A program made the translations under genes and the position numbers. From Blautia parvula (GTDB lineage Bacteria; Bacillota; Clostridia; Lachnospirales; Lachnospiraceae): a stretch of 64,000 nucleotides of DNA. Below, piece by piece: positions 17,758 to 44,671 of this stretch (the stretch's first letter is position 1; the number at the start of each line of letters is the position of its first letter). Below the pieces are notes generated by a model. It saw only the letters and a program-made list of their open reading frames with translations, searched no databases and was not told where the DNA came from. The stretch covers positions 1,954,001-2,018,000 of the forward strand of contig NZ_CP084061.1 of the NCBI RefSeq assembly GCF_020215665.1, read 5' to 3'.

Positions 17758-17767
17758 AAAAGCTCTC

Positions 17768-20812: not shown

Positions 20813-20827
20813 ATATTGCCCTCCTTT

Positions 20828-21407: not shown

Positions 21408-21415
21408 ACTCTCAC

Positions 21416-22597: not shown

Positions 22598-22642
22598 TTT
22601 TTTACATCCTCCTGAATTTCTTCTATATAATATCCACTGCTG

Positions 22643-23107: not shown

Positions 23108-23149
23108 TCTTTCACCTTCTTCCGCATTTTCTGTCCGCTATTCGATAAA

Positions 23150-23179
23150 GTTATAACGGAACATTTATATTCGTGGCAA
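23150..23179 (-). promoter_or_regulatory. Promoter of the rimP-ribF operon
   Basis: On the minus strand, TTGCCA (23174-23179), an 18-base spacer and TATAAC (23150-23155), about 40 bases before the rimP start. Confidence 0.5.
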
Positions 23180-23209
23180 CTTTATGGGTACTTAGTTTCC
23201 CACTACATA

Positions 23210-23238
23210 ATAAGAGTGGACCGAAGGCCCACTCTTAT
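23210..23238 (-). terminator. Hairpin ending the transglutaminase/PAP2-parEC operon
   Basis: Perfect arms ATAAGAGTGG (23210-23219) and CCACTCTTAT (23229-23238). Read on the minus strand, the loop holds TTCG. No long T-run follows, so it may work as a 3'-end stabiliser rather than a strict terminator. It separates the upstream operon from the rimP promoter. Confidence 0.5.
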
Positions 23239-23467
23239 GTTATCGTGATTATCAAGTTCTATACCAGAATACCACTAAAGCAGTAAAGTTGCAAGTGTTT
23301 TTATAACTATTCCTCCCACAACCACTATTCCGCGAGGTGTTTTGCGAAGCAAAATCCCGAGTTGGCCAGCGCCAAAATGCAATTTATTGCATTTTGTGTG
23401 CATCGCGAAGCGTGTTACTGTTCACAGAACTGCGCTTTTTGCAGGGCTGTGAATAGTTACGTGTTTT
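23239..23467. repeat. Palindromic element B (GCCAGCGC type) and flanks
   Basis: This stretch between the hairpin and the transglutaminase stop codon holds no gene. At 23365-23372 is GCCAGCGC, then a perfect 10-bp hairpin (arms 23373-23382 and 23387-23396), then TGTGCA (23397-23402) and CGCGAAGCG. TTTTGCGAAGCAAAA precedes it (23340-23354). GTTACTGTTCACAG (23413-23426) pairs with CTGTGAATAGTTAC (23447-23460) at 12 of 14 positions. The block order matches element A at 3612-3686. Confidence 0.7.
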
Positions 23468-24691: not shown

Positions 24692-24703
24692 AGGCATCTT
24701 CTC

Positions 24704-25624
24704 CTAGTCAAACCAATTCTTATGTTTAAAATACAAAATCTCTATGATAACGATCAGAAGCACCACACCGATAATGATAAAATAGCTGCCTTTATAGTAA
24801 AGCTCCGGCATATTCACAAAGTTCATGCCATACCAGCCGGTGATCAGCGTCAGGGGCATGAAAATAGTGGTGACGACGGTGAGGAACTGCATGATCTTGT
24901 TCTGCCGCTCCGCAGTTCTGGCCTGATACATTTCCCGGATCTGAAGGGTATATTCCCGCAGGTTTCTGGTGTTGTCCGCAAGGCGCTCTATTCTTTTTGC
25001 CATTACTCGGAAAAGGCGGCAGTCCTCCTCCCCGAGAAATCCCGTATAATTTTCCTCCAGCATTTCACAGAAGTCCGCAAGCTGGTCATAGTAGGTGTTC
25101 ATGCGCAGAAGCTCCCTGCGCACAGTCAGCATCCTTGCCGGACAGTCCTTGATCTCCCGACGGAACAGCCCGTCCTCCAAGTCTGTCATCCTGAGTTCAT
25201 ACGCCTGGAGAAAACGGACATCATCTTCTAACAGGCGCTCCATAAATTCAAAGAGAAAATGCGCCACATAACTCTGCTCCTGGAACCGGATTTCCTCCAT
25301 CTCTTTTACTATATGGGCCACAAATCCGGATTCGTCCACAAACAACAGCTTCTCCCTATCCATATAATACCCGAAGGAGATGGGTTTTTCCAGAAGTTTT
25401 TCTTTCTGGGGCACGGAAAAAGTTCCCACTACGCAGTCCTTCTGCAGCTCCGCCTTGCAGAAATGCACGTGCTCCAGGCTTCTTAAAAGCAGGCGCCCCG
25501 GACTGCTGTCCCCGTATTTTCTTTTGTAGGATTCCACTGTCAGTATCTCAATAAGGCAGTCTCCGGGAGCCAGAATTTCCTTTTCCCCGAGGCCTGACAT
25601 TTTCTTATTCAAACGATATCTCAT
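24704..25624 (-). CDS. corA: CorA-family magnesium/divalent metal transporter
   Basis: A 306-residue pentameric channel subunit. It has a long cytoplasmic alpha/beta funnel, then two C-terminal transmembrane helices. The signature YGMN is present (GMN at 266-268) just after the first helix, and the periplasmic loop 'FVNMPEL' follows. It mediates Mg2+ (also Co2+ or Ni2+) entry. The first 100 residues diverge from E. coli CorA, as is common in this family. The start has GGGAGG upstream. It lies 12 bases before the lipoprotein gene and 46 after parC. Confidence 0.92.
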   Translation of the reverse strand: MRYRLNKKMSGLGEKEILAPGDCLIEILTVESYKRKYGDSSPGRLLLRSLEHVHFCKAELQKDCVVGTFSVPQKEKLLEKPISFGYYMDREKLLFVDESGFVAHIVKEMEEIRFQEQSYVAHFLFEFMERLLEDDVRFLQAYELRMTDLEDGLFRREIKDCPARMLTVRRELLRMNTYYDQLADFCEMLEENYTGFLGEEDCRLFRVMAKRIERLADNTRNLREYTLQIREMYQARTAERQNKIMQFLTVVTTIFMPLTLITGWYGMNFVNMPELYYKGSYFIIIGVVLLIVIIEILYFKHKNWFD

Positions 25625-25670
25625 TAGGCCCTCCCGTATCGGCGCTGTTCCCTGCGGCCAAACCGGCCTG

Positions 25671-27917: not shown

Positions 27918-27927
27918 TTTGCTCCTC

Positions 27928-29865
<1,938 letters not shown>

Positions 29866-30693
29866 CTATTTCAGTATACTCTCAATCGCTTTTGCAGCAC
29901 CGTCATTCTCATTGGTGTCTGTCACTGCGCTGCTGATCTCCTTCACTCTGCTGCAGGCATTGCCCATAGCCACAGAGTATCCGGCATTTAAAAGCATTTC
30001 ATAATCATTATTGCTGTCACCGACTGCCATGATTTCTTCCTGTCTGACCCCGATCATGTCGGCCAGCTTTACAATGGCATTCCATTTGCTCCATCTTCCG
30101 TGCACCACTTCTATATTATTGGGGATGACGGAAATGGGATGTACACCGGGGAGCATATCTATTTCCCTTATCAGCTTATCCTTTTCTTCCATTTTGGATA
30201 CTAAAATATGTACCTTTCCCACACGGATTCCATCCTCTGCAAGAAGCTGCCTGTAGTCTGCTGTCATTTTGTTGGTGGCAAGAAGCTGGTCGCAGTATTC
30301 AACCGGAAGGCCGCACCTTCTTATAACTTCCTGCCCCTTTACATCCATATAGGCATCCTGTCCCGCATAGATTTCCACATATGTATCATACTGTGCCGCA
30401 AGCTCGTAGATCTTCCTGACATTGTCCATATCCATTTCATGAAAATACAGGACATCTCCTGTCCTGCCGTCGGTGATAACGGAGCCGTTACCGTTTATGA
30501 AATAGGAAATCTCCCTGAAATCTTTTAAAACAAACCGGGCATTGCGATAGGAGCGGCCCGTTGTGGGCACGATCAGGTATCCTTTTCTTCCCGCTTCCTC
30601 CACAGCTTCCCTGGTCCTCTCTGAGATGGTGCAGTCGTCCCGAAGAAGCGTACCGTCCAGGTCAATGGCTATCATTTTTAAATCTTTTCTCAT
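29866..30693 (-). CDS. Cof-type HAD-IIB sugar phosphatase family protein
   Basis: A 275-residue haloacid-dehalogenase phosphatase. Motif I is 'AIDLDGTLL' with the nucleophile D11 and acid D13. Motif II is 'VPTTGRS', and motifs III/IV include 'K' and 'AVGDSNNDYEML' near residue 215-226. The IIB cap sits between motifs II and III. Cof proteins dephosphorylate sugar phosphates, PLP and similar small molecules; the substrate cannot be predicted. It lies 15 bases before parE and 13 after the PAP2 gene, so it is co-transcribed. The start follows CAGGAG. Confidence 0.9.
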   Translation of the reverse strand: MRKDLKMIAIDLDGTLLRDDCTISERTREAVEEAGRKGYLIVPTTGRSYRNARFVLKDFREISYFINGNGSVITDGRTGDVLYFHEMDMDNVRKIYELAAQYDTYVEIYAGQDAYMDVKGQEVIRRCGLPVEYCDQLLATNKMTADYRQLLAEDGIRVGKVHILVSKMEEKDKLIREIDMLPGVHPISVIPNNIEVVHGRWSKWNAIVKLADMIGVRQEEIMAVGDSNNDYEMLLNAGYSVAMGNACSRVKEISSAVTDTNENDGAAKAIESILK

Positions 30694-30706
30694 CTTGGTT
30701 CTCCTG

Positions 30707-31240
30707 TTATTTGTTCGGATTCATTCGGCGGCTTTTCACACAGCCAAATACATACGCAGACAGCAGCCCGCAGCAGATGCCGATGACAATGCCCGCCATT
30801 ACATCTGTAGGGAAATGCACATACAGGTACAGGCGTGAAAAGGCGATCAGGGCAGCCAGCACATAGGCGCAGATGCCGGCCTTTTTATTGCCCGTAAACA
30901 GCGCTGTGGCCGCGGCAAAGGAGGCCTGCGTGTGACCTGACGGAAAGGAATAGTCCTTCGGCACCCGGATCAGCAGCTCCACGGTGTCGTTGATCCAGCA
31001 GGGACGCTGCCTGGCCACCAGCGGCTTTAATATAATATTTCCAAACAAAGCGGATAATATCAGCGCCCCCAGCACAAGAACGCCATACTTTCTGTATTTC
31101 TTCACACAGAGCAGCACCAGACCAAGTACGATCCAGAACCATCCTGCGTTTCCAAGGGATGTGATAAATACTAAAATTTTGTCCAGCAGAGGGGTATGTA
31201 TCTGCTGCAAAGCATCCAATATCGTAAATTCCCAACCCAT
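30707..31240 (-). CDS. PAP2-family membrane phosphatase
   Basis: A 177-residue integral membrane phosphatase with about five to six helices. All three PAP2 motifs are visible: K-x6-RP (KPLVARQRP), PSGH ('FPSGHTQ') and SR-x5-H-x3-D ('SRLYLYVHFPTD'). Candidate substrates are undecaprenyl pyrophosphate or phosphatidic acid-type lipids; the BcrC-like recycling role is possible. The start at 31240 (MGWEF) has AAAGGA upstream; the frame is open further back without ribosome signals. It is the first gene of the PAP2-HAD-parE-parC-corA-lipoprotein run. Confidence 0.9.
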   Translation of the reverse strand: MGWEFTILDALQQIHTPLLDKILVFITSLGNAGWFWIVLGLVLLCVKKYRKYGVLVLGALILSALFGNIILKPLVARQRPCWINDTVELLIRVPKDYSFPSGHTQASFAAATALFTGNKKAGICAYVLAALIAFSRLYLYVHFPTDVMAGIVIGICCGLLSAYVFGCVKSRRMNPNK

Positions 31241-31340
31241 ATCTTTTTCCTTTCTGTTTCGGATTCGTCCTATATCATAACTTATTTTGGGGATTTTTTC
31301 AAATCTATTCTGTAATTCGGTAAATATGTGGGGTGACGGC

Positions 31341-31377
31341 AAAAAACCTCCGGCTCCCGGGATGGGAGCAGAGGTTC
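31341..31377 (-). terminator. Terminator of the GH3/transporter operon
   Basis: AACCTC-x-GCTCCC pairs with GGGAGC-xx-GAGGTT; read on the minus strand, TTTTTT ends the stem. It lies 60 bases after the GPH transporter stop. Confidence 0.8.
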
Positions 31378-31439
31378 TTATCATCGGAATGTTGTTCGCT
31401 GCAGCAAAAGGCCGCTGTAGGATACAACATACTATTTTT

Positions 31440-32810
31440 TCACCCTGCAGAAGGTGTGCTTCTCTTTTTTAATTCTTCCTGAATATATGGCAATTCTTTA
31501 TCCAATTTATAAAATTGTAATGCCAATACAGCCAGAAAATACAAAGCCGCCGGTACCACGGTAAACAAAAGGATCACGGAATTTACTGCCGAACTGCTTT
31601 GTACCACCGCAGTGCCGTCATAACCGCCCAGTGCTGTGACAAGTCCTAACATGCCGCTTGCCAAACCGGTTCCGACTTTACTGCAAAAACCCGATACACA
31701 AGTATAAATCCCTTCTCCTCTAACCCCGTTTTTATACTCACCATAATCCATACAATTGATAATTACATTTGAGGTAAGAATAAAAATGGGCATAAAAGAT
31801 ATAGAAAAGAATAATGCCGAAACCAATAACAGCGGCATACTTGTCACCCCTAATAACGGCAGCAGTTTTCCAACGGCACCAATCAGTAATGCAGCCGCCA
31901 TCAAATTCTTCATTCCTATCTTCTTTGACAGCATAGGATAAAAAGCGATCGTCAATGGACCCGCAATGGATGTCACCGAAACAAGTGACATCATGGAAAT
32001 ATCCCCCACAACATACTTAAAATAGTAAGTTTGTGAATTCGCGACGATATTAGATGCAATATTTGTCATCAAAAGTGCCAATCCAAAAAACATCAGATAA
32101 CGATTGCTAAATAACAGTTTTGCACTCTGTACAATTGTAAGTTTCTTTGATTTATCTTTCATTACAGTTTCAGCAGTACCATCCACTTCCGGAATAAGAA
32201 AAATTCGGATAAAGGATAAAACAATTGCAGGAATACAGATCATAGCAGCGATCGTTCTCCAGCCGGATGCCGTTTTTCCGATTTTATCGATTAATAAAGG
32301 AAGTAAAACGCTTAACACCACAGATGAAAATGCTGAGATCATTCCTGTCAATGCTCCGACAGACACCTGGTCCTCTTTATCTGTCACTGCCCTTGCAAGA
32401 TATACGGTTCCTGCACAGGAATACAATGTCTGAAAAATCGAAAAAACCATTGTATATAAAATAAACACAAGAATTGCCGTTCCAACTGTTCCGATATTCG
32501 GAATGGAAAACAATATAAGCGTTGCGATCGCATAGAACGCAAAGGTGATATCATATGGTCTTGCCTTTCCCCATCTTGTATTTGTCCTATCAATCAAATA
32601 CCCAGCCAAAATATCGGTCACTCCATCAAAAATCTTTGATAAAAGCAGCAGAAGGCCCACAAGTCCGGATGGCAGTCCTAAAACATCTGTTGAAAAATAT
32701 GTAATATATCCAAGAAGAATCAGTACACATGCTGATCCGATCAGAGGCGCTGACCAAACAAAATAGAATAATTTTGAACGTTTACCCTTTTTATTCCTGA
32801 TTGTAATCAT
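31440..32810 (-). CDS. GPH-family sugar:cation symporter
   Basis: A 456-residue, 12-helix transporter of the glycoside-pentoside-hexuronide (MelB/XylP-like) family. The family loop 'IFDGVTDILAGYLIDRTNTRWGKARPYD' region (D-G-x-TD and R-x-GK-RP elements) lies near residues 60-85. It would import a glycoside with H+ or Na+. The start codon overlaps the stop of the first GH3 gene (ATGA), so the two are translated together; the glycosidases are cytoplasmic (no signal peptides) and act on the imported sugar. Codon and base use is more AT-rich than in the housekeeping operons. Confidence 0.92.
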   Translation of the reverse strand: MITIRNKKGKRSKLFYFVWSAPLIGSACVLILLGYITYFSTDVLGLPSGLVGLLLLLSKIFDGVTDILAGYLIDRTNTRWGKARPYDITFAFYAIATLILFSIPNIGTVGTAILVFILYTMVFSIFQTLYSCAGTVYLARAVTDKEDQVSVGALTGMISAFSSVVLSVLLPLLIDKIGKTASGWRTIAAMICIPAIVLSFIRIFLIPEVDGTAETVMKDKSKKLTIVQSAKLLFSNRYLMFFGLALLMTNIASNIVANSQTYYFKYVVGDISMMSLVSVTSIAGPLTIAFYPMLSKKIGMKNLMAAALLIGAVGKLLPLLGVTSMPLLLVSALFFSISFMPIFILTSNVIINCMDYGEYKNGVRGEGIYTCVSGFCSKVGTGLASGMLGLVTALGGYDGTAVVQSSSAVNSVILLFTVVPAALYFLAVLALQFYKLDKELPYIQEELKKRSTPSAG

Positions 32811-35053
32811 TTGTTTTCCTTCTTTCCCACATAAAGAGTCGTATGTAATTCTGCATTCACATTCCCTCCAACCCATATGTCGATGACTGTTTCATCCTGA
32901 ACATAGGCTTTTTTGCTGCTGCTGTAATAACGCAAATCATCTGCTGTCAATTTCAATGCAATTGTTCTGGTTTCACCCGGCATCAAATCTATCTTCGTAA
33001 ATCCCTTCAACAGTCTCTTTGGTCTGGTGTCACTTCCATATCTCTGGTGGATATAGAGCTGCGCAATTTCAGCCCCTGCCCGGCTTCCTGTATTGGAAAG
33101 ATTGAATCGCACAACAGCCTCTTCCCCTAACTGGATCTTCTCTTTTTCCAATACAAGATCGCTGTATTCAAATGTTGTATAACTCAGTCCATATCCAAAC
33201 GGATATAAGGGAGTTCCCTCTTCATTCCAATACCTGGAATAAGGTTTTGGCTGATCTTCCGCTGGCTGATGTGTGAGATTTTCTGCATAGAATTTCGGAC
33301 ACTGTCCGGCACTTCTCGGAACTGTGATCGGTAATTTTGCACTTGGATTTACGTCTCCGAAGAGAATATTAGCAACTGCATTGCCGCCTTCCCATCCCGG
33401 CTGAAAAGCTTCTACAATGGCATCTATATGCTCATCGGCCCATGTAAGTGAAAGCGGTCGTCCGCCCAGGAGCACAAGTACAATCTGCTTTCCTGTTTCG
33501 TATACTTTCTCAAGAAGTTCCTGCTGTCTGCCGGGTAAATCAAGGGTTGTTCTCGATGCAGCTTCCCCTGACATATTGACTGCTTCTCCCAGCACCATGA
33601 CAACCGTATCCACCTGTTTTGCCGCCTCAACTGCTTCTACAATTGCAAGTTCCGCTTCCTCATCCGTCTGCTTTTCTTTTTCCTTTTTGCCGCAAAAATC
33701 AGGAAGAATCTGAGAGACCATACTCGGAATATCTCTTTTTAACCATGCTCCCGGTCTGTAAATAATCTCTGCATCAGGAATCTTATTACGGATTCCCTCT
33801 AATACGGTTACTGCCTGCGGCACATTAGACATTCCGAGAATTCCTTCTGTGTCATCTTTTGCATCCGCAATTGGTCCGATCACAGCCAGTTTCTTAATAT
33901 CTTTTGATAAAGGAAGAATGGATTCTCTGTTTTTAAGCAGTACAATACTCTGTTCTGCACTCCATAGAGCTTTTTTTCTATGTTCCCTTTCATCTTCCTC
34001 TGATTCTATGTCAGTGTACGGATGTTCAAATAATCCAAGTTCAAACTTAGTTTTCAGAATACGCCTTACCGCATCATCAATCTGCTCCTCTTTTATTTTT
34101 CCTTCACGGACAAGTTTGGCCAGAAACTGGACATATTGAAAGCTCCCCATATCCATGTCTACATGCGCATCCATTGAGCGCAAAACAGCGTCTTCTCCGT
34201 CTTTTGTCAGTCCCTGAGTGATAAGGCTTCCGATGGTTCCTGCGTCTGTCACCACGAACCCATTAAACCCCCATTCCTCTCTTAATACCTCATTTAAAAG
34301 AAAGTGATTGATCGTTGCGGGAACATTGTTCAAATCCATATAGGCGGTCATTACCGTCTCTGCGCCTGCTTTTAATCCTGCTTCAAATGTAGGGAAATAC
34401 ACATTGCGAAGCTCTGCTTCCGATAAAATGACCTGGTCGTAGTCTCTTCCTCCCATGCAGGCACCATACCCGGCAAAATGCTTGACACATGTCATCAGGG
34501 AATCTTGTGCGTTTAATGATTCACCGTGAAAACCCTGAATTTGTGCCTCTACAAGCTTTGATGCAAGGCAGGGATCTTCCCCCATGGTTTCCCCCACTCT
34601 TCCCCATCTGGTGTCTCTTGCAATGTCAGCGTTCGGGAAAAAGGTCCAGTGGATTCCATCTCTTCTGGCTTCCTCTGCTGCAGCACGCTGGCTTTCCCGA
34701 AGCACTTTGGGGTCCCATGAAGCAGCCATTGCCAACGGAATGGGGAATCCCGTTCTATATCCGTGGACTACATCCGAACCATATAAAATGGGAATCCCAC
34801 ATGGGCTTTCTTCTACTGCGATTTTCTGAATGGCATTTCTTTTTTCTTTATTTAGCAGGTATAACATAGAACCTGCAAGCCCCTTACGCGCCATATCTTC
34901 GGGGTCCGGTCCTCCGAATTCTTTCATCTGCTCCAATCCCCATACCTGGTTCATCTGTCCAATCTTATCCATCAAATTCATCTGTGCCAACAAGTTTTCC
35001 GTTCGTTCTTCTATTGAAAGCTCCGGATTGAGATATGTTTTATCCTGTAACAT
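32807..35053 (-). CDS. GH3 beta-glycosidase, BglX-like
   Basis: A 748-residue glycoside hydrolase family 3 enzyme, cytoplasmic (no signal peptide). It has the (beta/alpha)8 domain with the KHF motif and the nucleophile D270 in 'GFVVTDAG', then the alpha/beta sandwich with the acid/base residue, and a C-terminal FnIII-like domain. The start at 35053 has GGAGG 10 bases upstream; an earlier in-frame ATG lacks one. Likely activity is exo-beta-glucosidase or xylosidase on short oligosaccharides. It lies 44 bases after the second GH3 gene. Confidence 0.92.
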   Translation of the reverse strand: MLQDKTYLNPELSIEERTENLLAQMNLMDKIGQMNQVWGLEQMKEFGGPDPEDMARKGLAGSMLYLLNKEKRNAIQKIAVEESPCGIPILYGSDVVHGYRTGFPIPLAMAASWDPKVLRESQRAAAEEARRDGIHWTFFPNADIARDTRWGRVGETMGEDPCLASKLVEAQIQGFHGESLNAQDSLMTCVKHFAGYGACMGGRDYDQVILSEAELRNVYFPTFEAGLKAGAETVMTAYMDLNNVPATINHFLLNEVLREEWGFNGFVVTDAGTIGSLITQGLTKDGEDAVLRSMDAHVDMDMGSFQYVQFLAKLVREGKIKEEQIDDAVRRILKTKFELGLFEHPYTDIESEEDEREHRKKALWSAEQSIVLLKNRESILPLSKDIKKLAVIGPIADAKDDTEGILGMSNVPQAVTVLEGIRNKIPDAEIIYRPGAWLKRDIPSMVSQILPDFCGKKEKEKQTDEEAELAIVEAVEAAKQVDTVVMVLGEAVNMSGEAASRTTLDLPGRQQELLEKVYETGKQIVLVLLGGRPLSLTWADEHIDAIVEAFQPGWEGGNAVANILFGDVNPSAKLPITVPRSAGQCPKFYAENLTHQPAEDQPKPYSRYWNEEGTPLYPFGYGLSYTTFEYSDLVLEKEKIQLGEEAVVRFNLSNTGSRAGAEIAQLYIHQRYGSDTRPKRLLKGFTKIDLMPGETRTIALKLTADDLRYYSSSKKAYVQDETVIDIWVGGNVNAELHTTLYVGKKENK

Positions 35054-35097
35054 GGTTATTTCCTCCTGATCTCTGCCTGTCCACGGCCACATAATTT

Positions 35098-37362
35098 TTA
35101 TTTATTTAAATCCTGCACTATCTGCATCAGCTGCTCCCTTGTCATTCCGCCGAAACTTTCCAGTATCCCCAGGGGCATTTCCAGAAACATTCTCTGCTGC
35201 ATTTTCGCCGCACCTTCTCCCAACACGTCAAAGGTGCTTTCTTCCTCTCCCTTCGACATGGGAAGCATCAGCTGCTCCAATACAGCACGTCCCTTTGCTG
35301 TTTTTAACAGGCTGCCGACATTTGACTCCAAGGTGTAATGGTATGGCAGCTCTGCACTGCTGTCCACATGAACAATTTCTCTTAATCGGATATCTCTGCT
35401 TGAGGCACCGATCTCAATGGCAAAATCGCCGCTTTCCACATACCAGTCATGAATTTTTGTTTCATAGTAAGCAAAACTTCTCTTATCCAAAAGAAACTCT
35501 ACCTGTTTTTCCTGATTCGGATTCAAGTCAGTCTTTACAAAACCTTTTAATTCTCTCACCGGTCTGTCCACACTGCTTTCCAAATCTCTGACATAAAGCT
35601 GTACGACTTCCTTTCCGTAAACAGAACCGGTATTTTTTATTTTACATGTAACCCGCACAGTTTCTGTATCTGACAAAGTCGATTTTTCGACCTTTAAGTC
35701 GCTGTACGCAAAATCTGTATAAGAACATCCGTGTCCAAACGGGAACTGCACATCCATTTCTTTTTTGTCATAATAACGATATCCCATATAAATCCGCTCA
35801 CAGTAATCAGCGATACCGTCCGGTCCCGGGAAATTCAGATAAGCCGGGGTATCCGGCAATTTTTTTGCCCATGTCTCTGCCAGCTTTCCGCTCGGATTGT
35901 CCTGTCCATATAGCAAACGGACCGCTGCGGCTCCAACCTGCTGTCCTCCCAGATGCATACACAACACCGCTTTCACTTTTTTAAGCCACGGCAGATGCAT
36001 AGGGGAACCGCCATGCAGTACAACAACCAGATTCTTCTGTACTTCTGAAATTTCTTCGATCAGTCTGTTCTGATTGTCAGGGAGCTGATCATGTTCCCTG
36101 TCAAAGCCTTCCGATTCAAAGGAATCCGGCAATCCGGCAAATACAACTGCAACATCTGCCTGTTTTGCTGCCTTTACAGCCTCCTGTACCAATTCCTCAT
36201 CTGCTGATTCCGTTTCTGCGTGATATCCTTTTGCATAGGCAACGCAATATTTTTTCGCTGCCTCTAATGCACTTGTCACACGGTTCGCATTAATATGGCT
36301 GCTGCCGCTTCCCTGATAACGTGGTTTCTCCGCAAACGCGCCGATAAATACAGCCTTTTTTTCAGTACTGATCGGCAATACTTTTTCGTCACACGAATCA
36401 TTTTTCAGCAGTACCGCACACTGAACAGCCAGTTCTTCGCTTAATTTTGCTAATTCCTCTCTATCAATACCGGTATTTTCCTGTTTCTGTTCCTGATAGT
36501 CGAAAATGAACTGCAAGACATCAGCGACAATAGCATCCACTTCCGATTTCGTCACCTTACCGCTCTCCAAAGCGGCTTTTAATGCTGCCTCATGGGTACC
36601 ATATCCTCCCGGCATAACCAGATTCAACCCTGCCCGGATGCCCTTTACCACATCCTTTGCAGCGCCCCAGTCTGTGACAACAAAACCATCAAATCCCCAC
36701 TTTTTACGAAGAATATCTGTCAACAGCATTTTGTTTTCTGAACAGAATTCTCCGTTGACCGCATTGTAAGCACACATTACACTGCGTGTTTTTCCTTCTT
36801 TTACAGCCATCTCAAAAGCCGGAAGATAGATCTCATGCAGGGTTCGTTCGTCCATATTGGAAGAACCATTCATACGCATGGTTTCCTGGTTATTAGCCGC
36901 AAAATGCTTTACACAGGCTGCGACGCCCTGCTTCTGCAGGCTCCTGATATAAGCACCCGCCAGTTTTCCCGCCAGATAAGGATCCTCACTGAAATATTCA
37001 AAGTTTCTTCCGCACAGGGGACTTCTCTTCATATTCAGTCCCGGTCCGAGAAGCATACCCACATCCTCTGCCTGACATTCTCTTCCCAATGCCTCTCCAA
37101 GCTGTTCCAGAACATTTTCATCAAAACCGGAGGCCAATGCCGATGCACTCGGATAACAAACCGTCTTAATACTTTCGTGAATTCCCATATGGTCACTTTC
37201 GCCCTCCTGTTTGCGAAGACCATGAGGGCCGTCGCACATCATCACGGATGGGATCCCGAGTCTCTCTACTTTTTCCGTGTGCCAGAAATCAGCACCGGAA
37301 CAAAGTGCGATTTTCTCATCTAACGTCAGCATATTCAACATTTCTTCCACTTTTTTCCTCAT
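35098..37362 (-). CDS. GH3 beta-glucosidase, Clostridium BglB-like
   Basis: A 754-residue GH3 enzyme of the other major GH3 architecture. The barrel domain starts at once with 'KIALCSGADFWHTE' and 'MMCDGPHGLR' (substrate-binding Asp), with nucleophile D231 in 'GFVVTDWGA'. The sandwich, the FnIII-like domain and an extra helical C-terminus of about 80 residues follow. The N-terminal pattern is like clostridial thermostable beta-glucosidase B. It is the first gene of the GH3-GH3-transporter operon, under the promoter at 37425-37430. Start 37362 has GGAGG upstream. The two GH3 proteins are not close copies of each other. Confidence 0.92.
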   Translation of the reverse strand: MRKKVEEMLNMLTLDEKIALCSGADFWHTEKVERLGIPSVMMCDGPHGLRKQEGESDHMGIHESIKTVCYPSASALASGFDENVLEQLGEALGRECQAEDVGMLLGPGLNMKRSPLCGRNFEYFSEDPYLAGKLAGAYIRSLQKQGVAACVKHFAANNQETMRMNGSSNMDERTLHEIYLPAFEMAVKEGKTRSVMCAYNAVNGEFCSENKMLLTDILRKKWGFDGFVVTDWGAAKDVVKGIRAGLNLVMPGGYGTHEAALKAALESGKVTKSEVDAIVADVLQFIFDYQEQKQENTGIDREELAKLSEELAVQCAVLLKNDSCDEKVLPISTEKKAVFIGAFAEKPRYQGSGSSHINANRVTSALEAAKKYCVAYAKGYHAETESADEELVQEAVKAAKQADVAVVFAGLPDSFESEGFDREHDQLPDNQNRLIEEISEVQKNLVVVLHGGSPMHLPWLKKVKAVLCMHLGGQQVGAAAVRLLYGQDNPSGKLAETWAKKLPDTPAYLNFPGPDGIADYCERIYMGYRYYDKKEMDVQFPFGHGCSYTDFAYSDLKVEKSTLSDTETVRVTCKIKNTGSVYGKEVVQLYVRDLESSVDRPVRELKGFVKTDLNPNQEKQVEFLLDKRSFAYYETKIHDWYVESGDFAIEIGASSRDIRLREIVHVDSSAELPYHYTLESNVGSLLKTAKGRAVLEQLMLPMSKGEEESTFDVLGEGAAKMQQRMFLEMPLGILESFGGMTREQLMQIVQDLNK

Positions 37363-37424
37363 AATTTTTTCCTCCTGCATGTTTTCCTAATCACTCTTTC
37401 TGCCCGGATAGGACTGATACCTGG

Positions 37425-37448
37425 ATTATAGCAAAAGAAATTTCTTTT
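37425..37448 (-). promoter_or_regulatory. Promoter and 16-bp palindrome of the GH3 operon
   Basis: On the minus strand, TTGCTATAAT is an extended -10 box (TATAAT at 37425-37430). Directly upstream lies a perfect 16-bp palindrome, AAAAGAAATTTCTTTT (37433-37448), filling the spacer where an activator or repressor could bind. No good -35 box is visible, which suits an activator-dependent promoter. Confidence 0.5.
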
Positions 37449-37475
37449 TTGTGTTCGTTTAATTGTATATTTTTA

Positions 37476-37504
37476 TTGTAATGTATGTTTTTTAGATATA
37501 TTAT
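37476..37504 (+). promoter_or_regulatory. Promoter of the AraC regulator gene
   Basis: TTGTAA (37476-37481), a 17-base spacer and TATTAT (37499-37504), 35 bases before the TTG start. It diverges from the GH3 promoter. Confidence 0.5.
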
Positions 37505-37538
37505 AGAGTAGAGGATTTATGTATATGGAGGTATATAA

Positions 37539-38561
37539 TTGAAGAATATAAATGACACCTATATTAAACTGCAGACAAATAACACCCTTCTCTCTCACAA
37601 ACTTAAACACTTCTCTACCACCGCTGAGTATATTGACACAAACGTCAATATTCTCGGCTCCAAAACCATAAACCAAACATTTCAGAATGAATTTATTGTG
37701 AATTACGCGGATTTTCAAACATCAGGCATCATAAACGGCTCCATAGATATGGGAAAAATATACGAAACAGCCATTCAAAAACATGGTGGATTTGAAATGA
37801 TTTACGTTGTAAAAGGTACATCCTTAAATCAAATCAATCATACGAATTATCAGTTACAAAAAAATGATATTATGATCATGAACCCCAATTGTAAAAGCGG
37901 TATGATATCCTCCTCTGATTCAATCATCATAATTTTAACGGTTACCTCTGAGTTCTTAACTTACTTTTATAATCAAAACCACCGGTTTACCATGCTTCCG
38001 AAAATATTTCAGGACTTTTTTCTTTCGTGTTATAGAAACAGTGAATATAAAAATTCAGACTATTTTATTTTTTCAAATCAGGGTGAATCAGGGGAAACCC
38101 CTGAAGTCTCCGATCATTTTCATCAGATCAATGAGGAATTGCGGAAAAAAAAGCCCGGATACGAATCTATCGTATACGGACTTTTCTGCCGTCTTCTTTT
38201 TTCTATTACGGATTCATCCTATAAAGCGGAACAACACCAAATCGTTCCGCAATCCATGGAAGATTTAACAAAAAACATAAAACAGTATCTGGATACCCAC
38301 CGATATAAGATAAGCGGTTCTGAGCTGTCTGCTGTTTTTCACTTTCACAAAGATTATTTATCAAAAGTGTTTCAGGCAAAAATGAATCAGACAATCAAAA
38401 AATATAACCAGGCTGTCTGTATGGAAGAAGCATATAACTTATTATGTAATTCTCAGTTGACCATAAGCGAAATCGCAGATGCAATAAATTATTCCAGCAG
38501 ATCACAATTTTATGCTGCCTTTGAAAGTACGTTTGGGATGAAGCCTTCTTCTTTAAGATGA
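37539..38561 (+). CDS. AraC-family transcriptional regulator of the GH3 operon
   Basis: A 340-residue regulator. The first 160 residues resemble a cupin sugar-sensing domain (the 'LQKNDIMIMNPNCKSG' beta strands). The last 100 hold two AraC helix-turn-helix motifs, 'HFHKDYLSKVFQ' and 'TISEIADAINYSSRSQFYAAF', followed by the typical 'FGMKPSSLR' end. The TTG start at 37539 is supported by GGAGG seven bases upstream. It diverges from the GH3 operon, 176 bases apart, so it is the likely activator of that operon (inference). The gene is AT-rich compared with most of the window. A perfect terminator hairpin follows directly. Confidence 0.9.
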   Translation: MKNINDTYIKLQTNNTLLSHKLKHFSTTAEYIDTNVNILGSKTINQTFQNEFIVNYADFQTSGIINGSIDMGKIYETAIQKHGGFEMIYVVKGTSLNQINHTNYQLQKNDIMIMNPNCKSGMISSSDSIIIILTVTSEFLTYFYNQNHRFTMLPKIFQDFFLSCYRNSEYKNSDYFIFSNQGESGETPEVSDHFHQINEELRKKKPGYESIVYGLFCRLLFSITDSSYKAEQHQIVPQSMEDLTKNIKQYLDTHRYKISGSELSAVFHFHKDYLSKVFQAKMNQTIKKYNQAVCMEEAYNLLCNSQLTISEIADAINYSSRSQFYAAFESTFGMKPSSLR

Positions 38562-38563
38562 TG

Positions 38564-38588
38564 ACCGGGCAGGTACGGCCTGCCCGGT
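38564..38588 (+). terminator. Terminator of the AraC gene
   Basis: Perfect 10-bp arms ACCGGGCAGG and CCTGCCCGGT with loop TACGG, three bases after the stop. The following T-run is weak. Confidence 0.65.
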
Positions 38589-39003
38589 TAAAGTTATCCT
38601 TATAGCATTTTAAAACCTTTTAGTACCTGACTCAGATAAATATTGAAAGGTTTCCATTCTTTGTAAAAACTCTACCGCAGGCTGAATAAGGAATGTGCCT
38701 TACGTTAATACTGAAACCTTATACGCGTTTGAGCATATAAAAACTTGCTTGTACTTAGTGAGTAAACAGATAGAATGAAGACAGTTGTGACACAATCTCA
38801 ATAGCCTGGAAAATTTACCATAATAGCTAAAATAGGTCTAATTATATACAATCTACAGTGATCACTTATCATTTTTCGTTCTTTTTTAAACGAATCATTT
38901 AAAAAAATCTCATAAATCAAAAATTGGAATTTAATACTATATGGTGGTAAAAATCATATACATACGCTCATTTCCGATAGAAAACTTATATCTTGTTTAT
39001 AAA
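38589..39003. other. AT-rich stretch with no gene seen
   Basis: Both strands were read; stop codons are frequent in all frames and no ribosome site is followed by a real frame. Arms AAACCTTT and AAAGGTTT near 38611-38653 can pair. A 29-codon minus-strand frame ending near 38620 could be the tail of a lost gene but matches nothing I recognise. Confidence 0.4.
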
Positions 39004-39171
39004 CTAATCTTCTTTTTGATTTGTATTTTGAGTTTCCAAATTTTTACAGTATTCTTTCATACAATCAGGCACATCTGGTTCGTAAACATGAATAATCGAT
39101 GAACTTTTTGTAGATGTCAGTGCAGTTTTAATAATTTTTTCAACTAAAATATCCATTTTTTTATTTATCAT
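39004..39171 (-). CDS. agrD: AgrD-like autoinducer peptide precursor with Ser ring residue
   Basis: A 55-residue peptide gene, ATG at 39171 with AAGGAG ten bases upstream. Residues 1-20 form an amphipathic basic leader (KKMDILVEKIIKTAL). The core reads SSSIIHV (23-29), then YEPDVP (30-35), then a charged tail with C37 and C42. Listeria monocytogenes AgrD has CFMFV followed by YEPKSP, so the alignment puts Ser25 where the ring Cys should be and predicts a five-residue SIIHV lactone. Staphylococcus intermedius-group AIPs are the known precedent for a Ser lactone. It lies 144 bases downstream of agrB, the gene for its processing protease. Two GGTTAA motifs (minus strand, 39253-39258 and 39291-39296) sit in that gap. 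No mature peptide is proven. Confidence 0.75.
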   Translation of the reverse strand: MINKKMDILVEKIIKTALTSTKSSSIIHVYEPDVPDCMKEYCKNLETQNTNQKED

Positions 39172-39315
39172 AATATTTTCACTCCTTTTTATAAGATAAT
39201 GATATAATTATATAAGATTTTGTCTTGAAATAGCGTATATACATTATGTAATTTAACCTTACTAGTCATATAGCAAAATTATGTGTGCTCTTAACCCATG
39301 TCTATAATATCGTTA

Positions 39316-39885
39316 TTAGTCTCTTGTTCTTATAATCATTCTATTAACATCTTTTAATGATAATGTACTAAATACTTCTATAGAACAAGCCAAGAATATA
39401 ATATCTTTCACCTGTCTGTCTTGTATTATTAGTTCTGTCAACATTATAAAAAATAAAATGATTATTGAATTTCTTTTTCTCCGTCTTATTTCCGACTTAT
39501 CCGAAATCGGGTGTTTTTCAGTACAATATGGCGCATATTCATATAATAAAAAAACATAAAACACAAAACAAATTACCATCAAAAAATCCGGAAACTTTAC
39601 CAGCTTTCCAAATAAGATAGAACCGTAAATAATTGAAATCATAGTTAGACTGCATCCCCAACTTGTTTTACAATGCCGACCTCCTGCTTGGCTACGAAGC
39701 CCACTAAACACAAGTAAGACCACAACTGTCTCCGTCAAGTATCCACTACACAATCCCAGCAATAAAAAAAATAAAGTCTTACCCCAAGTAGCTCCTATCA
39801 CCTCCAATCCATATATCAATATATCAACATTATAATTTTTTCTATCCGAATGACTCAATAACCAATTTGCAATTTTCTTATACAT
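39316..39885 (-). CDS. agrB: AgrB-like peptide-processing membrane protease
   Basis: A 189-residue polytopic membrane cysteine endopeptidase that removes the C-terminal tail of AgrD and closes the ring. The family signature R-x2-AGG-x-H-x6-C is intact ('SQAGGRHCKTSWGC'), giving catalytic H71 and C78, at the same seven-residue spacing as H77/C84 of S. aureus AgrB. Four to five hydrophobic segments surround it, and the basic 'KSEIRRRKRNS' loop is typical. The start at 39885 (MYKKIANWLL) follows CGGAG; the frame is open 25 codons upstream without a ribosome site. AT-rich, unlike its neighbours. Its substrate is the agrD gene downstream; no agrC kinase or agrA regulator is present in the window. 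Confidence 0.9.
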   Translation of the reverse strand: MYKKIANWLLSHSDRKNYNVDILIYGLEVIGATWGKTLFFLLLGLCSGYLTETVVVLLVFSGLRSQAGGRHCKTSWGCSLTMISIIYGSILFGKLVKFPDFLMVICFVFYVFLLYEYAPYCTEKHPISDKSEIRRRKRNSIIILFFIMLTELIIQDRQVKDIIFLACSIEVFSTLSLKDVNRMIIRTRD

Positions 39886-40147
39886 AATTGCTCCGTACTT
39901 TAATACTATTTCTCTAACATCTCTAACAAATTTTATATCTAATCTTAACATAAATAACAATAATACACAATATTTTCACAAAAATATACCCAACTCTGAC
40001 AAGTAAGTTTTTTAATGGAACACCCCCAGCTTCAACCTGTATTTTCAAGTCCGATCTTTTTCCTTTATATAAAAATACACAATCCCCCTAAAATTTTCCG
40101 TTACTTTCCTGCTTTTCTACCTCTTCCCGGCATCCGCCCTATAAATA

Positions 40148-40933
40148 CTACAGCACAATCTCAAAATACCTCTCCAAAACCCCTTTCATCTCCTCCTCCC
40201 CAATCTCCATCTCCTGCACCACTACCCCATTCTCCACTTCCGTAAACCGATTCCCCATCACCGACACACTCCCACGCTCTGTCCTCTTATTCAGATAAAG
40301 CCTCTGACGGAACACGGAATTTTCGTTCTTGGAGCAGTATTCATTCATGGGGATATAATCCACAGCTTCCTGGGGCATGGTATAGAACTGCAGCATGGAC
40401 TCAATCTCCCCGCTGCCGGTCCTTCTCTTCATGGTCCACCAGGGGACTTCATCCTTATACATATAGTACCGCTCTCCCCTCATATCCGCCACTGCTCCGT
40501 CCTGCACCGGTACTGCTCCCGGGGGCATGGGACCGCCGTAGCCCACGTCGCAGAAATACTTCATGCCATCCAGCTCCACAATAATTCCCCTGTGAAGCAC
40601 AAGCGGCACATAATTCTTATTCCTGGTGATCCGGCACATACAGGAGCTGGCATGGAACCCCAGGTCCTTTAACAGAGCGGTAAACAGGGCATTCAGTTCA
40701 AAACAGTAGCCGCCTCTGTGCTTTGTCACCACCTTTTCATAGATTGCTTCAATGTCTAGCGGAATGTCCTTTTGAAACATCCAGACATCCAGATTTTCAA
40801 ATGGAACATGGAGCTGATGCCCGTAGATCAGGTCATCCAGGTATTCCTTTGTGAGCACATCCCTGCGCTTTCGCTGAATCCGTTTCAGATAGGCGTCTGC
40901 ATCGGGAACAGACGCATACAGTGCTTCATACAT
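40148..40933 (-). CDS. Arylamine N-acetyltransferase
   Basis: A 261-residue acetyl-CoA-dependent arylamine/hydrazine acetyltransferase. The Cys-His-Asp triad is intact: C77 in 'RGGYCFELN', H114 in 'VLHRGIIVE' and D129 in 'FCDVGYGGP'. 'VPFENLDV' at 43-50 is also typical. Gut bacterial NATs acetylate drugs such as 5-aminosalicylate, though the natural substrate is unknown. The start at 40933 has AAGGAGG upstream; the frame is open further back with no ribosome site. It stands alone. Confidence 0.93.
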   Translation of the reverse strand: MYEALYASVPDADAYLKRIQRKRRDVLTKEYLDDLIYGHQLHVPFENLDVWMFQKDIPLDIEAIYEKVVTKHRGGYCFELNALFTALLKDLGFHASSCMCRITRNKNYVPLVLHRGIIVELDGMKYFCDVGYGGPMPPGAVPVQDGAVADMRGERYYMYKDEVPWWTMKRRTGSGEIESMLQFYTMPQEAVDYIPMNEYCSKNENSVFRQRLYLNKRTERGSVSVMGNRFTEVENGVVVQEMEIGEEEMKGVLERYFEIVL

Positions 40934-41209
40934 AATCCTTCCTCCTTTTGCAGCACACCATATGATATCTTCATTATATACAGGTGCATTTTTGTTTGTA
41001 AAGCGGAAAAAAACTTTCGTCATATTGATCATACCCTATGCTACAAAAAGTAGGAATCTTTTTTCGGCAAATGAAACCCTGTGCGGATTTACGCACCGGA
41101 AATCCTGTTATATACTGATGTTATGAATTTATTACTGCATACCGGTATGTGAGCAAAAAGTATGAACGGGCAAGTGCGCATTTTGTCCAAAAGGAAGGGA
41201 GAAATTCAG

Positions 41210-42601
41210 ATGAGTAACGAAAAGAAAGGACTGAGTAAGGCGCTGAAGCTGTTCTACGGCATCGGCGACTGCGGCTTTACCCTGATGACCAATGTGGAGA
41301 GTTATTACTTTAACTTTTTCCTCACAAATCTGGCACAGTTCGGACTGGCAACCGTCTCCTTTATCACCACCACCGCAAGCGTCATAGACGCCTGCCTGTC
41401 CTGGATATATGGAGCCATCTTAAACAGTATCAAACCGAAAAAATGGGGCCGCTACCGTTCCTGGCTGATTCTTCTGCCATGGCTGGTACCGTTTCTCTAT
41501 GCATTCCAGTTTCTGAAAATCGGAGACGGGCCTCTTTCCATAGCGATCATTATCGCGGCTGCTGTTGTCAGCCATGTTGTATGGAACTTCCCCTATGTGG
41601 CCAATGTATCCATGATCGCGGTAGCCGGAAAAACACCGGATGACAGGGCGCATCTGGCCTCCACAAGAGCTGCGTGGGCTAACTTTTCCAAGGTGATCTT
41701 CTCCTATGTGGGGCCTCCCCTGGCTGCTCTCTTTGCAGGCATGATCGGAGAAAAAAGCCAGTACGGCGCAACCGCTTTTGTACTGGGATGTATTATGGCA
41801 GTGCTTTATTTCGCACATTTTAAAATGTTTGACGGATACGAGGAGGCAGAAGCAGCGGCAAACAGCGCAGCAGCTAAAAAAGATACCACCAAGACAGGCG
41901 GTATGGACCTGATCAAGGCCCTTCTGCAGAATCCGCCCCTCCTCTCCCTTTTGCTGGCTGATCTGGCAAAATGGATGTTCAATTTCGTGTGCTCCGGCGT
42001 AGCCATCTATTACTTCACCTATGTGGCACAGAATGCGGACCTTCTGGCAAGATATATCCTGATCTCCAACATTTTGTGCGTGATCGGTTCTTATTTTGCC
42101 AAAAATATGGCAAAGAAAATCTCGACCAGATCCACCACCATCGTCACCTTTTTCGCCATGGCTGTCATACTGATCGCCGCCAATTTCATCTATTCCAACG
42201 TGACCCTGGTCATTGTTCTTATGTCAGCGGCACAGTTCGGATATGGAGTTGCCTACGCGTGTACTCCGGCTCTCTATGCCGATACCATTATCTACTCTGA
42301 GTGGAAAACAGGAAAAAATGCTACCGGGTGGATCAGCGGACTTCAGAATGTCCCCTTAAAAGTCGGTGTTATGACAAGGGGTATCATCATCTCCGCCTGC
42401 CTTGCCTTCGCTGCCTTTGACCCGAGCATCGACGCTGCTATGGCATCCGTGGAGCTGAAAAAAGGCATCTGCATGGCATTTATGGTCATCCCTGCACTGG
42501 CCCTGATTGTGGCCGCTGTCCTACTTCTCTTCGGCTTCCGCCTGACAAAAGAGAAAGTGGAGCAGTATTCCGCTGAGATTGCCGCAAGAAACAGAAAATA
42601 A
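41210..42601 (+). CDS. GPH/MFS-type transporter
   Basis: A 463-residue, 12-helix transporter of the glycoside-pentoside-hexuronide type. The N-terminal 'LFYGIGDCGFTLMTN' (family G-x-GD pattern), the cytoplasmic 'KPKKWGRYRSWLI' loop and 'YADTIIYSEWKTGK' near 385 are characteristic. It starts a three-gene plus-strand run with two UroD-family proteins, so the substrate is probably a small methylated or glycosylated compound used by them (inference). The start at 41210 follows GGAAGGGAG; an in-frame ATG at 41162 has no such site. It is not a close copy of the transporter at 31440-32810. Confidence 0.9.
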   Translation: MSNEKKGLSKALKLFYGIGDCGFTLMTNVESYYFNFFLTNLAQFGLATVSFITTTASVIDACLSWIYGAILNSIKPKKWGRYRSWLILLPWLVPFLYAFQFLKIGDGPLSIAIIIAAAVVSHVVWNFPYVANVSMIAVAGKTPDDRAHLASTRAAWANFSKVIFSYVGPPLAALFAGMIGEKSQYGATAFVLGCIMAVLYFAHFKMFDGYEEAEAAANSAAAKKDTTKTGGMDLIKALLQNPPLLSLLLADLAKWMFNFVCSGVAIYYFTYVAQNADLLARYILISNILCVIGSYFAKNMAKKISTRSTTIVTFFAMAVILIAANFIYSNVTLVIVLMSAAQFGYGVAYACTPALYADTIIYSEWKTGKNATGWISGLQNVPLKVGVMTRGIIISACLAFAAFDPSIDAAMASVELKKGICMAFMVIPALALIVAAVLLLFGFRLTKEKVEQYSAEIAARNRK

Positions 42602-42617
42602 CAGGAGGTATCAGAAT

Positions 42618-43679
42618 ATGAAATTTGACGAAAAAGAACTGGAGATCATCGGTGAATACAACATGCCCGGCATTTACGGCGCGCCGGACAGCATAGTTCC
42701 CAAATACAACCGTCCCATCACCCCAAAGGAAAACATGCTCCGCATGCTGGAAGGCAGGATGCCTCTGTGGGTGCCAAACCAGACCCTTGACAACAATGCC
42801 ATACAGCCCCTTGTTATGCCGGATGCAAAAGCCCGCAATTTCGGCGGCACGGACTGGTTCGGCATTGAGTGGGAATACGAGCCGAACACAAAGGCAGCCA
42901 TGGTAAAACCAGGTACCCGGAGGCTGTCTGACATTACAAAATGGCGGGAAGAACTGGAATTTCCTGACTTGACCGCCATAGACTGGAAGAAAGACTACGA
43001 AGAGAATTATAAAGGACGGATTGCCTGTGACCGCTTTTCCTACTTTGTCATCGTAAACGGATTTTTTGAAAGAACTGCTGACCTGATCAGTTTTGAGGAT
43101 GCCTTCTGTGCCCTCATCGAAGAGCCGGAGGAGCTGACTGCCTTCTATGACAAGCTGGCTGAATGGCACATTGAACTGATCAAGATTGCCCATGATGTCT
43201 ACCACACAGATATGATCCTCTTCCACGACGATATGGGAACCCAGATCAGCACCTTCTTCTCACCGTCTACCTATGAAGAGCTGTTTGTTCCCCAGTATAA
43301 GAAGATCACCAAAGCCGCCCACGATATGGGCATGTATATCTGTCTGCACTCCTGCGGCTGCATCAAAACACTGATGCCCCTCATTATTGAGGCTGGATTT
43401 GATGCCTGGGAGGGCCAGGACAGCGCCAATGATAAGGCAGCCATCATGGAGGAATACGGAAAAGACCTGGCACAGTGTACACTGTATATCATACCCGCGG
43501 ATATGAGCGATGAGGACGCTGTCGCGGATATCCACAGAAAAGTAGATGAACTGGCTATGACCGGCCGTTTTGCCTGCCGTCTGAAGGATGAGAAGCCTGA
43601 CCGTGCAGTGAATCTTGCCGATGAACTGTACCGCTACAGCAGAATCAAATATGCAGAATTGGAGGAATCAAAATGCTGA
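42618..43679 (+). CDS. Uroporphyrinogen decarboxylase (URO-D) family protein, HxC type
   Basis: A 353-residue TIM-barrel protein of the URO-D/MtaA superfamily. It is not likely to be the haem enzyme HemE: it lacks that enzyme's N-terminal R-Q-A-GR motif, and it lies in a transport operon. The strand 'YICLHSCGCIK' provides H244-x-C246 plus C248, the zinc ligand pattern of corrinoid:CoM-type methyltransferases such as MtaA. The adjacent 'LFHDDMGTQ' (202-210) is conserved between it and the next protein. A methyl-transfer role in demethylating an imported compound is plausible but unproven; no corrinoid protein is encoded nearby. Start 42618 follows GGAGG. It overlaps the next gene by seven bases. 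Confidence 0.82.
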   Translation: MKFDEKELEIIGEYNMPGIYGAPDSIVPKYNRPITPKENMLRMLEGRMPLWVPNQTLDNNAIQPLVMPDAKARNFGGTDWFGIEWEYEPNTKAAMVKPGTRRLSDITKWREELEFPDLTAIDWKKDYEENYKGRIACDRFSYFVIVNGFFERTADLISFEDAFCALIEEPEELTAFYDKLAEWHIELIKIAHDVYHTDMILFHDDMGTQISTFFSPSTYEELFVPQYKKITKAAHDMGMYICLHSCGCIKTLMPLIIEAGFDAWEGQDSANDKAAIMEEYGKDLAQCTLYIIPADMSDEDAVADIHRKVDELAMTGRFACRLKDEKPDRAVNLADELYRYSRIKYAELEESKC

Positions 43680-44671
43680 CACCAAAAGAAAATTTCCTGG
43701 AAACCCTGAAAAAGGACGGAAAACCGGACCGCCTGGTCAATCAATATCAGCCCTTTGTCCCGATCATGAATGATCCCCTGCAGAAATTCACCAGAGGAAA
43801 CCGTGTACGTGGAAAAACTTCCGTGGACCGCTGGGGAACGGAGATTCTCTTCCCCGAAGACGCTCCCGGCCCCATGCCCCATGTCACGGAAGCCAATAAA
43901 GTGTGTCCGGATGTGACCCGGTGGCAGGAATCCGTAAAAGTCCCGGACCTTATCGCCAACTGCAGCGACGGATGGGAAGACGCCCTCAGCGCCGCATCCC
44001 AGGTGGACCGCAGCGAAAAACTGGTTCTCGGCTTTATGGGTACCGGAATCTTTGAGCAGAGCCATTTTCTCATGGGCTTTGAGGATGCCCTGATGAATCT
44101 TCTTCTGGAGCCGGAATCCATGCAGGAGCTGGTGGACGCCATTGCGGAATACCGTTTCCGGTATGCCAAACTGCTGGTTGACAATCTGCACCCGGATATC
44201 ATCCTGTCACACGATGACTGGGGTTCCAAGACCAGCCTGTTCATGCAGCCTGACATCTGGAGGCAGTTCTTCAAAGAGCACTACCGACGCATTTACGGAT
44301 ATATGCACGACCACGGTGTTCTGGTCATGCACCATGCAGATTCCTTCCTGGAACCTATTGTTGAGGACATGGCAGAGATTGGTGTGGATGTATGGCAGGG
44401 CGTGCTGCCGGAAAATGACATTTTAAAACTGCAGAAGCAGCTTGACGGCCGCATGACTCTCATGGGAGGCATTGACGCCACCATAGACCGTGAGGACGCC
44501 ACGGAGGAAGAAATACGCGCAGATGTCCGGAGGGCCTGCAGCACTTACGGACCGGGCGGACACTTCATCCCCTGCATGACCTACGGCCTTGCCGGTACCA
44601 TTTATCCCAAGACAGACGAGATCATCGCCGACGAGATTGAAGCTTACAACAGGGAAACCTATCATATCTGA
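43673..44671 (+). CDS. URO-D family protein lacking the HxC metal motif
   Basis: A 332-residue partner of the same fold. It has 'LSHDDWGSKTSLFM' like its neighbour, but the metal strand reads VMHHADSF (H220, H221, D223) where the neighbour has H-x-C-x-C. The C-terminal 'GGHFIPCMTYG' supplies another Cys. The two proteins may form a pair with different jobs, one binding zinc and one binding substrate, or this one may use a different metal. The start has GGAGGAATCAAA upstream, inside the end of the previous gene, so translation is coupled. A terminator follows. Confidence 0.8.
   Translation: MLTPKENFLETLKKDGKPDRLVNQYQPFVPIMNDPLQKFTRGNRVRGKTSVDRWGTEILFPEDAPGPMPHVTEANKVCPDVTRWQESVKVPDLIANCSDGWEDALSAASQVDRSEKLVLGFMGTGIFEQSHFLMGFEDALMNLLLEPESMQELVDAIAEYRFRYAKLLVDNLHPDIILSHDDWGSKTSLFMQPDIWRQFFKEHYRRIYGYMHDHGVLVMHHADSFLEPIVEDMAEIGVDVWQGVLPENDILKLQKQLDGRMTLMGGIDATIDREDATEEEIRADVRRACSTYGPGGHFIPCMTYGLAGTIYPKTDEIIADEIEAYNRETYHI

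Follow-up and report, generated by a model that had tools for sequence, protein, structure and literature searches.

In Staphylococcus intermedius/pseudintermedius the agr signal is the lactone RIPT[STGFF], in which Ser stands for the ring Cys, and in Enterococcus faecalis the GBAP of the fsr system is a Ser lactone made through AgrB-type processing (PMC3673130 and PMC12312760 for both). The Agr2 peptide of Clostridioides difficile is listed as NSA[SSWVA], i.e. with a Ser ring, in PMC12312760. C. difficile Agr1 is described as having effects without known agrCA (PMC8534292), and for the agrBD pair of C. perfringens there is evidence for VirS as the receptor (PMC7492741). The CFMFV thiolactone is reported for Listeria monocytogenes (PMC4916163), and six-residue rings are known from C. 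acetobutylicum (PMC4916163 and PMC12312760).

The pair described here lies in a window (by which we mean the whole stretch of DNA that was analysed) of 64,000 nt of Blautia parvula, assembly GCF_020215665.1, contig NZ_CP084061.1, positions 1,954,001-2,018,000 of the forward strand. It resembles C. difficile agr2 (agrB2D2C2A2) by the Ser at the ring and by a Ser doublet where the ring starts, here Ser24-Ser25; however agr2 has agrC and agrA in its locus, and the window locus is without them. With the agr system of S. intermedius/pseudintermedius it shares the replacement of the ring Cys by Ser and, by prediction, the lactone, whereas the staphylococcal locus is a complete agrBDCA, belongs to distant bacteria and makes a characterised five-residue ring. 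The E. faecalis fsr is unlike the window pair in its nine-residue ring, its fsrD placed inside fsrB and its linked fsrCA. The orphan pairs of C. difficile agr1 and C. perfringens also have no agrCA in the locus, with a receptor elsewhere as working model, but the peptides listed for them in PMC12312760 carry a ring Cys which the window peptide lacks. As to L. monocytogenes, its AgrD and that of the window both place Y-E-P-x-x-P at a five-residue spacing, a likeness noted by a first, sequence-only reading of the window, which gives the letters following the Listeria ring as YEPKSP; the Listeria ring is closed on a Cys and its AgrD belongs to an agrBDCA operon, whereas a Ser and agrBD alone are found here.

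Gene layout and the AgrB protein

The features on which the following relies are, in window positions:

39316..39885, minus strand: agrB, 189 aa, predicted membrane peptidase-cyclase (PF04647 at 120.3 bits; H71/C78 invariant; hydrophobic segments)
39673-39675, minus strand: predicted catalytic His71 codon of agrB
39652-39654, minus strand: predicted catalytic Cys78 codon of agrB
39891..39894, minus strand: ribosome-binding site of agrB, GGAG, read from the sequence
39004..39171, minus strand: agrD-like propeptide gene, 55 aa (TIGR04223 at 16.8 bits, below cut-off; profiles excluding its own peptide)
39181..39187, minus strand: ribosome-binding site of agrD, AAGGAGT, read from the sequence
39085..39102, minus strand: Ser24-Ser25-Ile-Ile-His-Val29 codons, predicted macrolactone core (AgrD alignments; ring closure inferred)
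39067..39084, minus strand: YEPDVP codons (residues 30-35), conserved motif after the ring (same columns in 98 AgrDs)
31323..40161, no strand: 8.8-kb stretch with two GH3 glycosidases, an AraC regulator and agrDB (blastn against the congener G007; Pfam; GC)

An AgrB is defined by a catalytic His and a catalytic Cys seven residues apart. H71 and C78 of the window protein have this spacing and are invariant in our alignments of 6 and 8 sequences, and its score with Pfam PF04647 is to be compared with a cut-off of 23 bits. The gene starts with the ATG at 39885, GGAG standing five bases upstream. The agrD-like ORF lies on the same strand, 144 bases downstream of agrB, with AAGGAGT about 10 bases ahead of its ATG. 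The sequence-only reading had announced an agrB with H71/C78 at 39316-39885 and a 55-codon gene with a good ribosome site at 39004-39171, and was right on both, in place as in content. It had also pointed to the possibility of a better AgrD beside another agrB; as the window AgrB is the sole PF04647 match of its 6.25-Mb genome, there is no second AgrB for such a peptide to adjoin.

When the window AgrB was used as BLAST query against 397 genomes of the family, 31 came out at E ≤ 1e-8, its own included, and the best reached 36% identity. Exact peptide words retrieved no AgrB relative, and no close relative of the agrBD pair was found, a point that we count against our main reading. Matches to AgrB on plasmids are distant (11 records, 25-30% identity). 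A phage origin of agrB received no support, the phage collection giving no tblastn match at E ≤ 1e-4. PF04647 is matched in 5 of 20 genomes of the genus and in 114 of 298 genomes of the family.

In the AgrB tree the window protein belongs to a group of eight rows, with L101, L091, L185, L114, L193, L181 and L183; the branch (88/92, not starred) gives to this sequence-based grouping a support that is only moderate. The seven other AgrBs of the group are 22-30% identical to that of the window, and by BLAST E-value the member L193 comes only after two AgrBs from outside: L184, with a ring Cys, and L190, with Ser in the usual column.

Another branch of the tree (95/83) gathers eight AgrBs, L009, L094, L130, L146, L147, L182, L186 and L191, none of which has an AgrD nearby. 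In L009, L094, L182, L186 and L191 the AgrB sits between a regulator and a kinase of the opposite strand, and GHKL kinases were confirmed by Pfam for L009, L094, L130, L146 and L182. These may be AgrBs without AgrD, or AgrBs with a substrate that escapes recognition. In L176 (G026:C97:66000-76089), AgrB comes directly behind a large ORF which, by eye, resembles an ABC transporter of the bacteriocin type bearing a peptidase domain, and a GHKL kinase stands behind AgrB on the opposite strand.

Genomic setting and candidate receptor

G007, which we term a close congener because the DNA flanking the locus is 83-90% identical, is colinear by blastn with window positions 16955-31322 and 40162-44418; between these blocks about 360 bases replace the 8.8 kb of the window, which encode two GH3 glycosidases and an AraC regulator (by Pfam) besides agrDB. 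The lowest 1500-base GC of the window is found around agrDB (38600-40100), at 29% versus 47.7% for the window, and G007 has no AgrB match. Either the 8.8-kb stretch was gained here or G007 lost it; the AT-rich composition and the missing AgrB match in G007 favour the first, and agrBD was probably acquired on a genomic islet. That GH3 genes and agrBD would form a common unit is not supported: other organisms provided 55 loci with GH3, including short ones, and none of these matched AgrB or AgrD at E ≤ 0.01. Elsewhere in the window, at 19810-20410, staggered blastn matches to G007 correspond to short internal repeats of a gene resembling, by eye and from the G007 ORF, the translation initiation factor IF-2.

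The 64-kb window contains no LytTR and no GHKL-kinase match, in agreement with the earlier statement that no agrC/agrA is near, and the pair is thus without the linked kinase and LytTR regulator of an agrBDCA locus. Six of the seven other tree-group loci carry a kinase/LytTR pair divergent from agrBD (one regulator and two of the kinases were scanned with Pfam, the remainder being recognised by similarity). The sequence-only reading had advised to look for LytTR regulators and AgrC-like kinases elsewhere in the genome; this genome has eight LytTR and 27 GHKL-type matches, seven of each lying together as pairs or near pairs. With profiles of the six divergent pairs, one of the own pairs, at 5.097 Mb, comes first; its kinase scores 128.4 versus 74.3 bits among the seven paired kinases, and its regulator 187.2 versus 81.0 bits among the eight own LytTR regulators:

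G000:C1:5096996-5099067, about 3.1 Mb from agrBD: best candidate receptor pair (kin-pair profiles)

The pair lying closest to agrB, about 34 kb away, is not the one with the most similar sequence, and was set aside. The 5.097-Mb kinase has no match in G007 at E ≤ 1e-20, all 20 candidates being scored; with neither a kinase match nor an AgrB match, G007 lacks both agrBD and the candidate receptor. The DNA of the receptor pair (L140:4997-7068) gave no match among the candidate places scored in G007 and G008 (40 of 136 and 120), which weighs less than the result for the kinase, and parts of the neighbouring ABC-transporter gene match elsewhere in both genomes. G004 and G006 have no AgrB match either (G004 is 91% complete). 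Their regulators nevertheless score 225.9 and 234.5 bits with the kin profile, versus 187.2 for the own candidate, and the kinase of G006 129.5 versus 128.4 bits. As genomes without an AgrB match have equally close or closer members, the presence of this receptor family does not hinge on that of AgrB. We put forward the link between agrBD and the 5.097-Mb pair as a hypothesis drawn from profile scores. In the same region (L140:9310-9444, on G000:C1 at about 5.10 Mb), up to 135 bases between two ORFs match dozens of places in G007 and G008 and are probably a dispersed repeat of the genus.

An orphan agrBD pair could be decaying. The linked agrC/agrA is missing although six of the seven other tree-group loci have the pair, the setting is very AT-rich, the AgrD stays below the curated cut-off and a promoter scan gave 10 promoter-like sites for 9.3 expected, i.e. 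chance level; all this speaks for a reading in which agrBD came without its receptor, or lost it, and is now decaying or silent. We nevertheless hold such a fate to be unlikely: both reading frames are intact, each with a good ribosome site, the catalytic pair and the PxxP are kept, and orphan agrBD pairs do act in C. difficile Agr1 and in C. perfringens (PMC8534292 and PMC7492741 respectively).

The ring residue and the small ORF

The window AgrD has no Cys in its ring region, where Ser24 and Ser25 are found, and two Cys (Cys37 and Cys42) in its tail. The replacement of the ring Cys by Ser, first proposed by the sequence-only reading, is thus borne out. How unusual it is was appreciated by a census of 134 loci: 7 of the genus, 30 and 80 rows of the scored family list—taken from the top of this list and not at random—and 17 relatives, 5 of them duplicates of other loci and excluded from the counts. 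An AgrD was found beside 101 of the 134 loci, the 33 others having no AgrD match. Once repeated loci were removed, 98 AgrDs remained, with Cys (66), Ser (30), Thr (1) or Ala (1) in the ring column. The loci of the genus and family lists alone give 86 AgrDs, with 59 Cys, 25 Ser, 1 Thr and 1 Ala, the 10 rows of relatives (5 Cys, 5 Ser) being counted apart; two pairs of identical peptides are kept in the 98-row count, and one of each is dropped in the 86-row count. Among the 25 Ser cases, 16 have no Cys nearby and 9 have one within a few residues, which makes their ring residue ambiguous.

When high-scoring loci were sampled class-wide, 23 of the 30 had an AgrD, with 18 Cys, 2 Ser and 3 other residues, these last three rows having a Cys just ahead of the ring column. 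Across the class Cys is thus the usual residue, and the sample of the host family is richer in Ser. The assertion that clostridial AgrDs normally use Cys holds as a majority statement (59 of 86 in genus and family, 18 of 23 class-wide); with 25 Ser in 86 and the Ser-ring peptide listed for C. difficile Agr2 (PMC12312760), the Ser ring is neither the surprise that had been supposed nor exceptional, though Cys is commoner. On the AgrB tree of 127 rows, the Cys/Ser label needs at least 10 changes (3 of them forced by starred branches) versus 25.6 in shuffles: the ring residue is clustered on the tree, yet it changed several times. Our literature search, which reached few subscription journals, found no survey of ring Ser in the host family. 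In the same census, the AgrD beside the AgrB of L063 (G061) has Thr in the ring column (CAGFTRFLFYEPEIP) and a Cys four residues earlier, and might give a Thr lactone.

The tail Cys had been called odd. For Cys37 this does not hold, as six other AgrDs of the 98 (seven with the own one) have Cys at this position, Cys42 being left out of this count. Four of the six, L080, L090, L093 and L159, have an ordinary ring Cys; the two others have none, and bear Ser (L158) or Thr (L063). A peptide whose ring region is without Cys, whose tail has two, and which shares Cys37 with two other AgrDs also lacking a ring Cys, might be merely cleaved by AgrB into a linear peptide, or might involve its tail Cys. 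We find this very improbable, given the established Ser lactones of the S. intermedius group (PMC3673130 and PMC12312760), and given that Cys37 and Cys42 lie beyond the expected cleavage site and that four of the six AgrDs sharing Cys37 have their usual ring Cys.

The AgrD-like ORF has no Pfam match and misses the NCBIfam TIGR04223 cut-off of 19 bits. It is recovered by profiles from which it was left out: E = 1.1e-4 with a profile of 69 other AgrDs (a training set chosen by a pattern requiring C, S or T at the ring, which may under-count other residues), and E = 3.6e-6 with a profile of the tree group's six other AgrDs, where it ranks second among the non-training ORFs of a set of 8,336. In a leave-one-out test on this set, all seven AgrDs were refound, at ranks 1-3 except L101 (rank 17, E = 0.008). 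Such E-values, obtained with the own peptide left out, indicate that the AgrD assignment is more than chance.

Within the tree group, L091, which has Cys at the Ser25 position, passes TIGR04223 (27.8), L183 is below (14.9) and the four others have no match, i.e. all six Ser-only AgrDs of the group, own included, fail the cut-off. L008, a Ser-type AgrD of another group, passes (25.5). The window gene has the features of an agrD—a small gene adjoining agrB, with a ring core, the aromatic-[QE]-P-x-x-P motif and a charged tail—and its YEPDVP consists of the commonest letters of the Y/H-[QE]-P-x-x-P columns in the 98 AgrDs. As to amphipathicity, the N-terminal leader has a maximal moment of 0.58, reached by 0.21 of shuffles. 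Judging from the profile matches and the kept agrD features, the small ORF next to agrB is a genuine AgrD and the pair a real agrBD. It is hardly credible that the ORF is spurious and that AgrB acts on another substrate, as the eight AgrBs of the neighbouring branch without AgrD nearby might suggest, since the own-excluded profiles find it immediately behind agrB and in the same orientation, and no other small ORF listed around agrB looks AgrD-like by eye.

Ring size and proposed working of the pair

The general AgrD alignment places Ser25 in the ring column, giving the five-residue SIIHV of the sequence-only reading. The tree group speaks differently. Six of its seven other AgrBs have an AgrD beside them, with the cores SVPWNF, SCPAYF, SFPIGM, SIPAGI, SLFPWT and SVFIAA; for the eighth row, L114 (L114/L179), no AgrD was found. 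The Ser shared by these six stands six residues before the aromatic position (Gly in L101) and aligns with Ser24. Counting the own one, the seven AgrDs all have Ser at -6 and only one has a ring Cys; those of L181, L183, L185 and L193 had been noticed before the tree that groups their AgrBs was built. SIIHV thus has the general alignment for it and the tree-group Ser against it: these alignments point towards Ser24 without proving it, and a six-residue SSIIHV ring appears as likely as SIIHV. Relatives with Cys at position 25 had been named as an argument against the Ser ring, and this applies in part, as L091 has Cys there and the conserved Ser just before. For L091 itself, the Cys in the place of Ser25 makes a five-residue thiolactone the more probable product.

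We give a probability of roughly 70% to the reading in which this is a genuine agr-type pair, making a Ser macrolactone signal that would be read by an unlinked receptor in the cell or in its neighbours. It is supported by the AgrB score and catalytic pair, by the AgrD refound with own-excluded profiles and by Ser in 25 of 86 AgrDs; counted against it are the missed TIGR04223 cut-off, the only moderate support of the tree group and the rank of L184 and L190 before L193. Under this main reading, Cys78 and His71 of AgrB would cut AgrD after Val29 and pass the acyl group to a Ser hydroxyl, to yield the macrolactone SSIIHV from Ser24 or SIIHV from Ser25. A second protease would trim the leader and the peptide would leave the cell; the signal could then be read by an unlinked GHKL kinase/LytTR pair of the own cell, the best candidate being G000:C1:5096996-5099067, or by neighbours.

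More tentatively, these elements may be joined. The window pair would then belong to a branch with six-residue Ser macrolactones (Ser at -6), in which Ser-only members go unrecognised by the AgrD model and which normally stands beside a divergent kinase/LytTR pair; here it would lie on a carbohydrate-utilisation islet and act via an accessory receptor about 3.1 Mb away. Taken as a whole, this combination is speculative, and we consider it rather doubtful that all its parts hold together.

Ser-ring signals are already known and are fairly common in the host family; the Blautia locus, with its predicted Ser lactone, is one more case of this known type. Searches or synthetic signal libraries restricted to Cys thiolactones would miss the Ser-ring signals.
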